This document shows positions 33,728 to 60,963 of a stretch of DNA of 64,000 nucleotides, piece after piece. How positions within the stretch are numbered: position 1 is the stretch's first letter; each line of letters starts with the position of its first letter. The position numbers and the translations under genes were made by a program. The stretch spans positions 9,140-73,139 of the forward strand of contig NZ_CH672404.1 in the NCBI RefSeq assembly GCF_000152885.1, read 5' to 3'. This DNA comes from Idiomarina baltica OS145. GTDB lineage: Bacteria > Pseudomonadota > Gammaproteobacteria > Enterobacterales > Alteromonadaceae. The notes under the pieces were generated by a model. The model saw only the letters and a list, made by a program, of their open reading frames with translations. It searched no databases and was not told the DNA's origin.

Positions 33728-33943
33728 TGAGCTTGGATGCGGGCTGCGCCCGCAGGCTGTGATGGCGCTCGCTGCGCTTGCGCCAGGCCTTGCTTGCCTG
33801 TGCTTCGCACGGCAAGGCTGTGTAAGAGCAAAATAAATGCGGGCCCTCGCTCGTACACAGCCGCATGGCGCGAAGCGCACATGCGCAAAGCCTGCGGCAA
33901 GCGCAGCGAGCCGCATCCAAACCTGGCGGCGAAGCCGCCATCC
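33728..33943. repeat. Hairpin-rich intergenic repeat, copy A
   Basis: A ~216-bp element made of consecutive short palindromes fills most of the 399-bp flgL-flagellin gap. It begins TGAGCTTGGATG. The first hairpin is TGCGGGC-TGC-GCCCGCA (33738-33754); inner ones include GTGC-TTC-GCAC and GCGC-GAA-GCGC; the last is TGGCGGC-GAA-GCCGCCA (33924-33940). It is a close match to copies B and C downstream, in the same orientation. A ~25-bp stretch near 33830 (AAATAAATGC) is specific to this copy. Open frames across it in all phases are arginine/alanine/cysteine-rich artefacts. It may also act as the flgL mRNA 3' end. The remaining ~180 bp before flagellin hold its sigma-28 promoter and leader. Confidence 0.88.
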
Positions 33944-33982
33944 CCACTAAAAACCCGCGCTAAAAAAAATTAAAATTTTTTC

Positions 33983-34009
33983 TAAAGGATCCCAACCCCC
34001 CGCCGATAC
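33983..34009 (+). promoter_or_regulatory. Sigma-28 promoter of flagellin
   Basis: TAAA (33983-33986), 15 bases, GCCGATAC (34002-34009): one mismatch to the FliA consensus. It leaves a leader of about 105 nt before the flagellin ATG. Confidence 0.85.
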
Positions 34010-35358: not shown

Positions 35359-35386
35359 AGCGGCTCCTTCGGGGGCCGTTTTTTTT
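35359..35386 (+). terminator. Terminator after flagellin
   Basis: CGGCTCC / GGGGCCG stem with TTCG loop and eight T residues, about 50 bp after the stop codon and directly before repeat B. Confidence 0.92.
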
Positions 35387-35390
35387 GCTC

Positions 35391-35590
35391 TGAGCTTGGA
35401 TGCGGGCTGCGCCCGCAGGCTTTGATGTTACTCGCTACGCTCGTAACAGGCTTTGCTTGCCTGTGCTTCGCACGGCAAGGCTGTGTACGGGCAGCTTGTG
35501 CACAGCCGCATGGCGCGAAGCGCACATGCACACAGCCTGCGGCAAGCGAAGCGAGCCGCATCCCAGCCTGGCGGCGAAGCCGCCATCCAC
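35391..35590. repeat. Hairpin-rich intergenic repeat, copy B
   Basis: A ~200-bp element in the 365-bp gap after flagellin. It begins TGAGCTTGGATG (35391-35402) and ends GCCGCCATCC. The order of hairpins equals copy A: TGCGGGC-TGC-GCCCGCA, then a TGTTAC/GTAACA arm pair, the TTGCC/GGCAA stem enclosing GTGC-TTC-GCAC, GCATG/CATGC enclosing GCGC-GAA-GCGC, GCGGC/GCCGC, and TGGCGGC-GAA-GCCGCCA. Same orientation as A. About 85 bp of AC-rich sequence follow before the four-helix-bundle gene. Confidence 0.88.
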
Positions 35591-35675
35591 ACTCAGAAGT
35601 CTCACACCACAATCATCCGCAAGTTCAAAAACCATCCCCTAAACTGCAATAACCCCTCACAACCCAACACAAATA

Positions 35676-36047
35676 ATGAATTATCAAAAACTCTGGCTTT
35701 GGCAGCATTCCCTTGATATTGCCATCGATATAATGGAAACCTTCCAGCACAGCAAAAATTTCAGTTTTAAAGACCAGGTATTCCGCAGCGCCATTTCGAT
35801 ACCCAGCAACATTGCCGAAGCTATGACACGAGACACACCCGCTGATCGGCGAAGAATCCTCTATTACGCCATCGGTTCATGCGCAGAACTCGATACACAA
35901 TTGCAGATAGCTTTACGATTAAAGTGGATTGAGACAAAGCAGCGAGAACAGTGGCGTCGGGCGCTACGACAGATTTATGTTGGACTTCACCGACTTCGCG
36001 GGAAACTGGAGCAAAGCCGGGATGCGAGCTCCGCCCGCAGGCTGTGA
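35676..36047 (+). CDS. Four-helix-bundle protein of the 23S rRNA intervening-sequence (S23/IVP) family
   Basis: The 123-aa protein has family features LWLWQHSLDIAIDIM, FKDQVFRSAISIPSNIAEA, RRRILYYAIGSCAELDTQLQIALRLKWI and a final helix IYVGLHRLRGKLEQ. Members form pentameric four-helix bundles; the best known relative is the Avd accessory protein of diversity-generating retroelements, and others are encoded in rRNA intervening sequences. No reverse transcriptase, template/variable repeat pair or rRNA is present here. The last ~10 codons and the stop lie inside repeat C, so the natural C-terminus was altered or is supplied by the repeat. It lies between repeats B and C, unrelated to flagellar genes by family. 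No clear Shine-Dalgarno. Confidence 0.8.
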   Translation: MNYQKLWLWQHSLDIAIDIMETFQHSKNFSFKDQVFRSAISIPSNIAEAMTRDTPADRRRILYYAIGSCAELDTQLQIALRLKWIETKQREQWRRALRQIYVGLHRLRGKLEQSRDASSARRL

Positions 36048-36210
36048 TGTTACTCGCTCCGCTCGTAACAGGCTGTGCACGTGTCGCTACGCTCCACGTG
36101 GCCGTGCACAAGCGCTCGTGCACAGCCTCGCGCCGCGAAGCGGACGCGAACAAAGCCTGCGGCAAGCGCAGCGAGCCGCACCCCAGCCTGGCGGCGCAGC
36201 CGCCATCCAA
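36019..36210. repeat. Hairpin-rich intergenic repeat, copy C (first unit)
   Basis: A ~192-bp unit like copies A and B, starting GGATGCGAGC and ending GCCGCCATCC. The first hairpin has diverged (GCGAGCTCCGCCCGC); the central hairpin carries a variant arm (CACGTGTCGCTACGCTCCACGTG-type). It overlaps the last 29 bp of the four-helix-bundle gene. Confidence 0.85.
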
Positions 36211-36219
36211 ACACAAAGA

Positions 36220-36319
36220 TCGTACACAGCCGCATGGCGCGAAGCGCACATGCACACAGCCTGCGGCAAGCGCAGCGAGCCGCACCCCAGCCTGGCGGCG
36301 CAGCCGCCATCCAAGCTCA
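36220..36319. repeat. Hairpin-rich intergenic repeat, copy C (second, half unit)
   Basis: A ~100-bp tandem duplicate of only the 3' half of the element (from GTACACAGCCGCATGGCGC to the end). Its end, CATCCAAGCTCA (36308-36319), is the exact reverse complement of TGAGCTTGGATG at the start of copies A and B, so the outer ends of B and C2 form perfect 12-bp terminal inverted repeats. The flaG sigma-28 promoter begins 21 bp later; nothing else is seen in this ~390-bp gap. Confidence 0.86.
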
Positions 36320-58836: not shown

Positions 58837-60963
58837 ATGAGCTTTGAGATGGACGAAGAGATCTTACAGGATTTCTTAATCGAGGCAGCAGAAATCCTCG
58901 AGCAGTTATCCGAGCAACTCGTTCAATTAGAAAACGACCCCGAAAACAAAGATCTTCTCAATGCGATTTTTAGAGGATTTCATACCGTAAAAGGGGGCGC
59001 CGGCTTTCTTGCCGTTTCGGCACTGGTCGATACCTGTCATGGTGCAGAAAACGTGTTCGATACCTTGCGTAACGGACAACGCACAGTCACGTCTGACCTC
59101 ATGGACGTGATCCTGCAAGCGCTCGACACCATCAATGCCCAATTTGCTCAATTACAAGCGCGAGAGGAACCCGAAGCCGCTGACAGCGAGCTCCTCGAAA
59201 CCCTCCACAAGCTCTCCCAACCCGAGTCTGAAGACGACACCGCCGACGCCGCCGCCGCCGACGACGACGCCGACGTACGTCGCGCCTCTGGCGCGACAAA
59301 CGACGCCGAAAACACAGTCGACGACATCCAAGAAGACGAATTCGAAGCCCTGCTCGACGAACTCCACGGCAAAGGCCAAGGCCCCGGTGCCTCAAAAACA
59401 GCCAATAAAAAAGAAGCACCAAACACCCACACCGATAACGACGAGATCACAGACGACGAATTCGAAGCCTTGCTCGACGAACTCCACGGTTCGGGTAAAG
59501 CCCCAACCAGCGCAGAAAAACAGCAAGAAGAGCAAAAATCAGCCAGCAAAAGCGACAGCGACGAAATTACCGATGACGAGTTTGAAGCGCTGCTCGACGA
59601 TCTGCACGGCAAAGGCAAGGCCCCTAAAGTCAACAAAGCCGCAGAAAAGCCAGCGCAACAACCCGCAGCAGCCAAAAAGCCCGAGCCTCAAAAAGCAGCG
59701 CCTAAACAGCCCGAGCCGAAAAAAGCTGAACCATCAAAAGAGCAAGCCAAGCAGCCGGCGAAGAAGCCCGCCGCGCCACCACCACCGCCCCCAGAAACCA
59801 CTGTGCGAGTGGATACCAAACGTCTTGATGAGATCATGAACATGGTCGGTGAGCTCGTGTTAGTACGAAACCGCCTGTTAAGCCTCAGCAACAGCGACGA
59901 TCAAAAGCACGAAGAAATGAGCAAAGCCATCGCCAACCTCGATGTCGTAACCGGCGACCTACAAGGCTCGGTGATGAAAACCCGGATGCAGCCTATCAAG
60001 AAAGTCTTTGGCCGCTTCCCGCGGGTCGTGCGTGATCTGGCACGTAGCCTGAAAAAAGAAATTAATCTCGAGATGCACGGCGAAGAAACCGACCTCGATA
60101 AAAATTTAGTCGAAGCACTCGCTGACCCATTGGTGCATTTGGTGCGCAACTCGGTCGATCACGGCATCGAAATGCCCGATGAGCGCCAAGCAAAAGGCAA
60201 GCCGCGCGAGGGAATGGTAACACTATCGGCGTCGCAAGAGGGTGACCACATTATGTTGTCTATTAAAGACGACGGTGCGGGGATGGATGCCGAAAAACTC
60301 AAACAAATCGCAATTAAACGGGGCGTTCTCGATGAAGATGCCGCCGCGCGTATGTCCAACGAAGATGCCTACAATCTGATTTTTGCCGCCGGTTTCTCAA
60401 CCAAAGAGCAAGTGTCGGATATCTCGGGTCGTGGCGTCGGAATGGACGTGGTAAAAACCAAAATCAGTCAATTGAACGGTAGTATTAAAATTGAATCAGA
60501 GCTCGGTAAAGGCACTGAACTACTCATCAAAGTACCGCTCACGCTGGCAATCTTACCGACCTTAATGGTCGAGGTAAAAGATCAAACGTTTGCACTGCCG
60601 CTCGCCGTGGTCAGTGAAATTATCGACTTGGATATGGCAAAGACCAATACCGTCGATGGTCAGTTGACATTGATCGTGCGTAAACGAGCGATTCCTCTAT
60701 TTTTCTTAGAGCATTGGCTGACGCGCCGTCCAGAGCGTAATAAGCGCAACGAAAACGGTCACGTAGTAGTAGTGCAGATCGGCAACCAACAAGTGGGTTT
60801 TGTGGTCGATGCGCTGATCGGTCAAGAAGAAGTCGTGATAAAACCACTTGATAAACTATTGCAAGGGACGCCAGGCATGGCGGGAGCGACCATTACCAGT
60901 GATGGTGGTATCGCGTTAATCATTGATGTGCCAAGTATGCTCAAGTACTACGCGAAACGATAA
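58837..60963 (+). CDS. cheA: Chemotaxis histidine kinase CheA
   Basis: The 708-aa kinase has P1 at ~1-130 with phospho-His49 (FRGFHTVKGGAGFL), then an acidic Ala/Asp stretch, three 40-residue repeats (~163-263) with core DEFEALLDELHG, a Lys/Pro/Ala-rich linker with six prolines (~265-320), P3 dimerisation domain (~321-385), P4 ATPase (N box HLVRNSVDHGIE, G1 DDGAGMD, G2 GRGVGMDVV) and the CheW-like P5 (ILPTLMVEVKDQTFALPLAVVSEII). No globular P2 (CheY-docking) domain can be recognised; the repeats occupy its place. Shine-Dalgarno AGGAGA; 13 bp after cheZ. Confidence 0.95.
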   Translation: MSFEMDEEILQDFLIEAAEILEQLSEQLVQLENDPENKDLLNAIFRGFHTVKGGAGFLAVSALVDTCHGAENVFDTLRNGQRTVTSDLMDVILQALDTINAQFAQLQAREEPEAADSELLETLHKLSQPESEDDTADAAAADDDADVRRASGATNDAENTVDDIQEDEFEALLDELHGKGQGPGASKTANKKEAPNTHTDNDEITDDEFEALLDELHGSGKAPTSAEKQQEEQKSASKSDSDEITDDEFEALLDDLHGKGKAPKVNKAAEKPAQQPAAAKKPEPQKAAPKQPEPKKAEPSKEQAKQPAKKPAAPPPPPPETTVRVDTKRLDEIMNMVGELVLVRNRLLSLSNSDDQKHEEMSKAIANLDVVTGDLQGSVMKTRMQPIKKVFGRFPRVVRDLARSLKKEINLEMHGEETDLDKNLVEALADPLVHLVRNSVDHGIEMPDERQAKGKPREGMVTLSASQEGDHIMLSIKDDGAGMDAEKLKQIAIKRGVLDEDAAARMSNEDAYNLIFAAGFSTKEQVSDISGRGVGMDVVKTKISQLNGSIKIESELGKGTELLIKVPLTLAILPTLMVEVKDQTFALPLAVVSEIIDLDMAKTNTVDGQLTLIVRKRAIPLFFLEHWLTRRPERNKRNENGHVVVVQIGNQQVGFVVDALIGQEEVVIKPLDKLLQGTPGMAGATITSDGGIALIIDVPSMLKYYAKR
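59323..59625 (+). repeat. Three 120-bp-period repeats within cheA
   Basis: Residues ~163-183, 203-223 and 243-263 repeat with an exact 40-residue period. The core is D(D/E)EFEALLD(E/D)LHG followed by KG or SG and a Pro. The second and third share DEITDDEFEALLD. Spacers between cores are different, polar and probably disordered. The core resembles the FliM N-terminal CheY-binding peptide (EIDALLNG) and the CheZ tail (DDLLSSLGF). Confidence 0.85.

Follow-up and report, generated by a model that had tools for sequence, protein, structure and literature searches.

Several described systems share part of their plan with the locus reported here. S23 open reading frames (ORFs) occur in rRNA insertions (PMC11270868), and the 23S rRNA intervening sequence (IVS) of Coxiella, as described in PMC4990558, carries such an ORF in a loop closed by a 28-bp terminal stem, which RNase III cuts; its authors termed it a selfish element. 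The likeness of S23 to Avd of diversity-generating retroelements (DGR) has an earlier description (PMC10053308), while 18 S23 genes have been reported in cas loci (PMC3936711) and a CRISPR survey mentions S23 in one of its figure legends (PMC10910872). In the REPIN/RAYT system, according to PMC3116915, one protein gene lies beside the repeats, the repeats are genome-specific and gene-less inverted units are scattered; GTAG and CGTC are given as their tags (PMC3733652). Finally, the heptamers of Xanthomonas and Nostoc (PMC4692102) and the TAACTGA repeats of Beggiatoaceae (PMC4679880) form period-7 arrays like those that we find at S23 loci. The term 's23' is absent from the main texts of both of these accounts, as is 'helix bundle' from PMC4692102 and 'four helix' from PMC4679880, and the best matches in the open-access literature, a scope that leaves subscription journals and preprints outside, draw no link between S23 genes and heptamer or hairpin arrays.

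The locus lies in a stretch of 64,000 nucleotides from an Idiomarina genome (G000; the whole stretch is called the window below). In our judgement it is probably an inserted mobile element, consisting of an S23 gene between inverted terminal arrays of short repeats, with S23 as the predicted partner of those arrays in a manner resembling RAYT and REPINs.

The composite element and its site in the flagellar cluster

The composite is surrounded by a flagellar cluster (flgK, flgL, fliC, flaG, fliD and fliS type), and the six neighbouring genes that were scanned are all flagellar, with no reverse transcriptase or variable gene among them. It comprises a complete hairpin array (unit B), the S23 gene, a second complete array (unit C) and a half unit (Table 1). 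The original prediction, made from the sequence alone, had described exact 12-bp inverted ends enclosing two-and-a-half repeat copies and an S23-family gene that ends inside the second copy, and in all of this it was correct: the ends are exact reverse complements, units B, C and the half unit are located, and the gene matches PF05635 (E 6.4e-25, 87.9 bits against a cut-off of 33.8) and TIGR02436 (93.7 bits against a cut-off of 24). It had also taken the 929 bp for one unit, and here it needs revision, for there are really two complete units and a half around a gene. The sequence TGAGCTTGGATG opens both unit A (33728) and unit B and, inverted, closes the half unit, the remaining copy ends being looser matches; it is therefore the terminus of the unit of approximately 205 bp and not just of the composite. 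The arms at 35391-35489 and 36221-36319 are complementary at 71% over 99 nt.

Table 1. Coordinates of the composite, its hairpins and the flanking features within the window.
Feature	Position	Strand	Remarks
Whole 929-bp composite	35391..36319	+	From sequence; gap without composite 196 nt, sister gaps (n = 6) 60-207 nt
Left 12-bp end, TGAGCTTGGATG	35391..35402	+	From sequence
Right end, CATCCAAGCTCA	36308..36319	-	From sequence; exact reverse complement of left 12 bp
Unit B, complete hairpin array	35391..35595	+	Left half TNC loops, right half GNA loops
S23/IVP four-helix-bundle gene, 123 aa	35676..36047	+	Last codons and stop inside unit C
Unit C, complete hairpin array	36012..36216	+	
Extra right half unit	36221..36319	+	
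Unit A, complete array without gene	33728..33950	+	Between flgL and fliC
Terminator-like hairpin and T run 3' of fliC	35360..35386	+	Left flank of element; by eye
Sigma-28-like promoter motif before flaG, TAAAG-N14-GCCGATAA	36341..36367	+	Right flank of element; kept in sister gaps
Same promoter-like motif before fliC	33983..34008	+	Right flank of unit A; kept in sister gaps
Hairpin 1 of unit B	35401..35417		Loop TGC
Hairpin 2 of unit B	35427..35447		Loop TAC, 2x2 internal loop; 3 covarying pairs
Hairpin 3 of unit B	35456..35479		Loop TTC; 4 covarying pairs
Hairpin 4 (central) of unit B	35479..35507		
Hairpin 5 of unit B	35508..35529		Loop GAA; 4 covarying pairs
Hairpin 6 of unit B	35539..35559		Loop GAA, internal loop
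Hairpin 7 of unit B	35569..35585		Loop GAA; GCA in unit C and half unit

A family search found a single S23 gene in this 2.77-Mb genome, and within the same genome the 210-bp repeat is confined to one 2.6-kb stretch of the window, only beside S23. An Rfam scan of the window returned a tRNA and no other known RNA family, and the S23 protein had no match to defence proteins in PADLOC. Elsewhere in the window (59319-59624) there are three direct repeats of 66 nt, spaced at 120 nt and 79-82% identical, which are perhaps an intragenic repeat.

The fliC-flaG gap could be read in eight of the 19 genomes of the genus. It measures 1125 nt in G000 and 196 nt once the composite is removed, and in six sisters it is 60, 167, 196, 206, 207 and 207 nt long and contains no such element; the outcome that would have refuted the original prediction, S23 genes at this locus in relatives without the repeats, did not arise in the genomes that could be read. 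Likewise, G000 has 399 nt between flgL and fliC, or 176 nt without unit A, and the seven readable sisters have 99-280 nt. An insertion element is expected to occupy a site in some relatives and to be missing from it in others, and this is seen in the window by gap length, and base by base on the plasmids described below. The element lies between the putative fliC terminator and flaG promoter, and unit A, between flgL and the putative fliC promoter, may be a gene-less derivative; the motif before flaG, judged by eye, and the one before fliC resemble the flagellar sigma-28 promoter consensus. Both sites hold other sequences in some sisters. The fliC-flaG gap of G011 (L090) is 773 nt long and, by eye, looks like a group II intron at the position of the S23 element, while the flgL-fliC gaps of some sisters carry other small hairpins; in four of them (G017, G011, G007 and G008; L098-L101) these are GTAG-hairpin repeats at the site of unit A, arranged in G017 as a REPIN-like inverted pair.

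Each unit consists of seven small hairpins in a row, and these have been kept as structure. Across units A, B, C and the half unit, four related rows that make a small sample and were aligned to a structure drawn from unit B, 97.4% of the 192 cells in 57 pairs are paired and both sides have changed in 12 of the 57; none of 500 shuffles reached any of the five measures, and sliding the alignment by one to three columns reduced pairing to 18-44%. The loops are distributed by side. Within 400 nt either side of the S23 gene at eight Idiomarina loci, C-G-closed triloops of the TNC kind number 16 on the left and four on the right, and those of the GNA kind four and 20. The densities of GNA and TNC triloops there (3.75 and 3.12 per kb) are some ten times the background (0.38 and 0.33), while other triloop kinds, 32 in all, are near it (5.0 versus 4.3 per kb). 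On the strand that reads GNA, the commonest loop is GAA (33), followed by GCA (eight), GTA (two) and GGA (one); L020 has no GNA/TNC triloop and L024 has one. In single-stranded DNA, loops of the C(GNA)G type are known for their high stability.

What relatives share is the design of this element and not its sequence. A search of 97 relatives and the own genome with the exact 210-bp repeat found, outside the own genome, just 27-33-nt matches in two relatives. The pattern GCAAGCGNAGCGAGC occurs in hairpin arrays of G000, G001 and G006, all Idiomarina with S23, and has zero matches in the other two of the five S23-positive Idiomarina genomes (G004 and G011); three of the 14 S23-negative genomes contain one match each, with no array around it. 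Four of the 16 matches, one in G000 and three in S23-negative genomes, were set aside since they had no surrounding hairpin array. At least two matches are thus found in three of five S23-positive and none of 14 S23-negative genomes (Fisher 0.010, in a test chosen post hoc). In G001, a hairpin array with four tandem 21-nt repeats (L071, 12950-13450) apparently lies inside a coding sequence.

Inverted arms and heptamers at S23 genes

S23 loci were found in 13 of 98 relative genomes and 79 of 377 Gammaproteobacteria genomes, and 40 more were taken from named contigs; phyla outside the Gammaproteobacteria are represented by single named-contig loci and plasmids, with Bacteroidota outside the sample. 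The arm test compared 250 nt upstream with 250 nt downstream of 118 near-complete S23 domains and scored as positive an inverted match of at least 28. These 118 are what is left of 126 loci after removal of eight that have no near-complete domain; L029 and L030 were dropped as repeats of L024 and L025, and L002-L008, L026-L028 and L069-L126 lie outside the set. Inverted arms flank 87 of the 118 S23 genes and, among the other genes at these loci, 13 of 312. This is a strong enrichment, and so the opposite of the outcome (widespread repeats with no enrichment near S23 genes) that would have refuted the original prediction, although p values overstate it since the S23 genes are mutually related; after clustering at 60% identity the counts are 25 of 39 and 5 of 57. 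The S23 flanks in the window have an inverted score of 104, more than chance would give, when the 99th percentile of the 312 other genes is 33 and three of them exceed 50, and six of the seven Idiomarina loci in the set pass (L016 fails). Mismatched pairs of S23 flanks pass in 10.9% of 1180 combinations, in our opinion because relatives share heptamers. An earlier version anchored on ORF starts gave 22 of 54 S23 genes against 12 of 238 controls at the same score, and the test was re-anchored on the HMM domain for the main result because arrays extend into the ORF start. Direct repeats at S23 show no shift in rank (p 0.71), yet there is an excess in the tail at score 28 (20/118 versus 15/312).

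The arms are commonly built of heptamers. Of the 118 S23 loci, 68 have period-7 arrays, compared with 21 of the 590 stretches that served as controls; 61 have period 14, which is twice seven, and each of the remaining periods from 4 to 15 occurs at one or two. The heptamer varies in sequence between loci and genomes and is alike on both flanks of the gene, and the Idiomarina hairpin array is a variant of this wider design, in which inverted heptamer arrays are the commoner ends. In all, 98 of the 118 genes have inverted arms or a period-7 array. The 20 that have neither count against the reading of a mobile element with S23 as partner, as do the excess of direct repeats, the absence of a clear target-site duplication at the filled sites below, the heptamers of G203 and G356 that stay at the S23 gene, the small share of G221 stretches with an inverted pair, the two Idiomarina genomes that have S23 and no hairpin motif, and the restriction of the window repeat to one place with only short matches in relatives. 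As a separate observation, the 1.5-Mb genome of G350 has eleven weak S23-family matches, of which several score identically; a divergent S23 gene may have multiplied there.

Plasmids repeat the association and also demonstrate insertion. Among 14 S23 genes (13 from cyanobacteria and one from Gemmatirosa, representing 14 of 29 plasmid records), 13 pass the arm test compared with 3 of 140 control positions, and 10 have period-7 arrays compared with 15 of 140; a fifteenth locus, L263, served for empty-site comparison only. On Nostoc-family plasmids, L260 contains 417 nt that are absent from L268 and L269, starting with a heptamer array and ending with the inverse array; in L252 and L263 the element occupies a site at which two genes lie 3 nt apart in L266 and L267; and L251 contains it where L264 is empty (a 52-nt gap) and where L265 has 260 nt with heptamer arrays and no S23. 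The inverted arrays are therefore the ends of an insertion. No clear target-site duplication was found at these filled and empty sites; in L260 a candidate TTCTA flanks the insertion on either side, but it could belong to the heptamers. The original prediction of a mobile unit whose small protein belongs to the folded repeat thus stands as regards insertion, with RNA processing and recognition by the protein as putative functions. It had further suggested that the unit may be non-autonomous, which is not clearly so because the unit carries the sole candidate protein; gene-less unit A and array pairs that lack S23 are better candidates for that description.

Plasmid S23 genes were found between two ribonucleotide reductase genes, between cas6 and cas4 and between cmr2 and cmr3. 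All three in cas loci (L254, L256 and L257) pass the arm test, with scores of 56, 61 and 29, which suit an inserted element, and insertion may be the simple reason why S23 genes occur in cas loci.

If S23 and its arrays form one system, a genome should be expected to carry elsewhere the heptamer that flanks its S23 gene. We searched 40 genomes (22 with S23 and 18 without) for three heptamers taken from S23 flanks, each as three copies with up to two mismatches, counting overlapping registers apart. GAGTTCT was found 104 times in G390, 117 times in G192, eight times in G203 (all at its S23 gene), once each in G366 and G190, and in none of the other 35 genomes; AGGGCCA was found 250 times in G221 and in none of the other 39; GGCAGTC was found eight times in G356, all around the S23 gene, seven times in G192, as expected from the arrays at L213, and in none of the other 38. 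All three S23-flank heptamers were found solely in S23-positive genomes, nearly all where predicted: G390, G192 and G221 have the repeat at scattered places, and G203 and G356 have it at the S23 locus only. Most scattered arrays are single. Several form inverted pairs with no S23 between them, in G390 and G192 and also in G221, where an inverted pair was present in four of 17 stretches fetched, one being the S23 locus (3/16 for the others). Six G221 sites have all or part of a non-coding interior of up to 136 nt in common, at 73-85%, and a hairpin core of some 75 nt is found at four places of G390, at 94-97%, which implies that copying went beyond the heptamers alone. Two G390 loci (L207 and L209) have nested arrays, with an inverted pair of one heptamer around arrays of another, which in turn surround a hairpin string. 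The GGGAATC arrays that PMC4692102 reports from two Xanthomonas genomes (186 and 183, with 70 and 75 convergent pairs) fit this picture, because GGGATTC and GGGAATC are found beside the S23 genes of Xanthomonas.

Local slippage alone was considered as an origin of the heptamer arrays and rejected, as it leaves the inverted pairing, the interiors shared between sites and the array-ended insertion unexplained. Another suggestion is that the arrays are made and spread by a different enzyme and that S23 is a passenger caught between two of them and travelling with them: arrays do occur without S23, no catalytic activity is known for S23, and differences in array length and sequence could also be obtained by slippage. 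A passenger should nevertheless vary, while S23 genes from several phyla are bracketed in the proportions given above, six of their residues are invariant over 44 sequences and the matches of three heptamers fall in S23-positive genomes only; we regard this explanation as distinctly unlikely.

The S23 protein and a proposed mechanism

The S23 protein of the window has its best named matches in I. seosinensis and I. aquatica, and its fold, from a predicted model of all 123 residues (pLDDT 96.4), is a four-helix bundle of the XCC0516 type, resembling Avd. A structure search with the model placed 2gsc (XCC0516; TM 0.84) and 2rld first, followed by Avd (4dwl) and a DGR complex (8ube) with E of 0.04-0.2 and probability 1.00; Avd aligns with a TM of 0.76 on the query (probability 1.00, E 0.035) at a sequence identity of 11%. 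W9, R37, S41, N45, S68 and E71, mostly polar, are the six invariant residues, and a similar motif was noted in PMC3936711.

The assembly of XCC0516 reportedly consists, to go by the title of its crystal-structure paper, of five four-helix bundles. Crystal structures of S23/IVP proteins exist, and to our knowledge they have been assigned no function and no catalytic activity is known for them; a catalytic role is speculation. We propose that S23 would bind folded single strands, of DNA or RNA, formed by the arrays that belong to its own element, and would pass them to a host strand-transfer enzyme, which would join the strands; acting in trans, it could spread gene-less array units, as RAYT is thought to move REPINs. 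That one heptamer corresponds to each subunit of a five-fold S23 ring is a guess. A bolder version, which we advance only tentatively and think somewhat less likely to be right than wrong, makes S23 itself the recombinase, or a targeting factor that could not be dispensed with, in a hitherto undescribed class of mobile elements that extends over several phyla, has a separate repeat code in each genome and multiplies gene-less units as well as the S23 gene. The invariant R, S, N, S and E and the five-bundle assembly would then let S23 read the single-stranded DNA or RNA of heptamer or hairpin arrays, and one system would underlie the rRNA IVS, the presence of S23 genes in cas loci and the orphan heptamers known from Xanthomonas and Nostoc.

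The structural data also bear on an alternative in which the element is mainly an RNA device like the 23S IVS, its paired arrays being trimmed by RNase III and the insertion tolerated, while S23 binds the stem and controls its own mRNA with no part in movement. As RNA, the unit is predicted to fold into a long stem (z -14.8, from 20 shuffles), the published Coxiella IVS (PMC4990558) shares the plan, and the fold of S23 is Avd-like. This explanation leaves the scattered arrays of the same heptamer without S23 unaccounted for, and S23 genes occur in either orientation to their neighbours (opposite in L249, L253 and L255, the same in L251 and L252). We consider it unlikely.

Comparison with known systems

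The mobile element with an S23 partner that we favour would work in the way of REPIN/RAYT though with an unrelated protein, and it shares with that system the arrangement of one protein gene beside repeats, the specificity of those repeats to a genome and the scattering of gene-less inverted units. It could be supposed that the arrays of the window are REP elements and depend for their movement on a RAYT (Y1) transposase whose gene lies elsewhere in the genome. Y1 genes, with RAYT and IS200 types pooled, are present in 22 of 30 genomes tested, including G000 and all 11 non-Idiomarina S23-positive genomes; GTAG-tagged hairpins occupy the flgL-fliC gaps of sisters at the site of unit A; and the gene-less inverted units do resemble REPINs. 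The Y1 gene of G000, however, on the same contig and outside the window (C9:146498-146815; L229), sits among dozens of GTAG-tagged REP-like hairpins of the form GTAGGTCGCGC...GCGCGAC, unlike those of the window, and these are a second repeat system in the genome. Among 18 Y1 loci from eight S23-positive genomes, one per fetched stretch, none had a period-7 array within 700 nt. We have rejected RAYT as the mover of the arrays on these grounds, and rate the explanation as very improbable.

Other differences are structural. The S23 protein is a four-helix bundle and not a Y1 transposase, and its element ends in heptamer or hairpin arrays. Unit A has the gene-less inverted order of a REPIN, with seven hairpins where a REPIN has two palindromes; window units begin with a GGATG hairpin after TGAGYKT instead of the published tags; and the window repeat adjoins S23 only, while REPIN/RAYT repeats lie beside a Y1 gene. 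The Coxiella IVS is laid out on the same plan and differs in that the window element occupies an intergenic fliC/flaG site and not rRNA, has repeat-array ends and exists also as gene-less units. Avd shares its fold with S23 at the low identity given above, and the six flagellar neighbours scanned include no reverse transcriptase or variable gene. Insertion elements and MITEs have terminal inverted repeats, and so does the S23 element. A cautious view would place the S23 element as a variant of the IVS kind, but we know of no described element that combines array ends, scattered units and a genome-specific repeat.

As far as their published accounts go, the heptamer arrays of Xanthomonas, Nostoc and Beggiatoaceae are described without a protein partner, and the link to S23 offers one answer to both the arrays and the protein. 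If it is true, the S23 elements would be a new class of mobile element that has no recognisable transposase and works in the manner of RAYT and REPINs.
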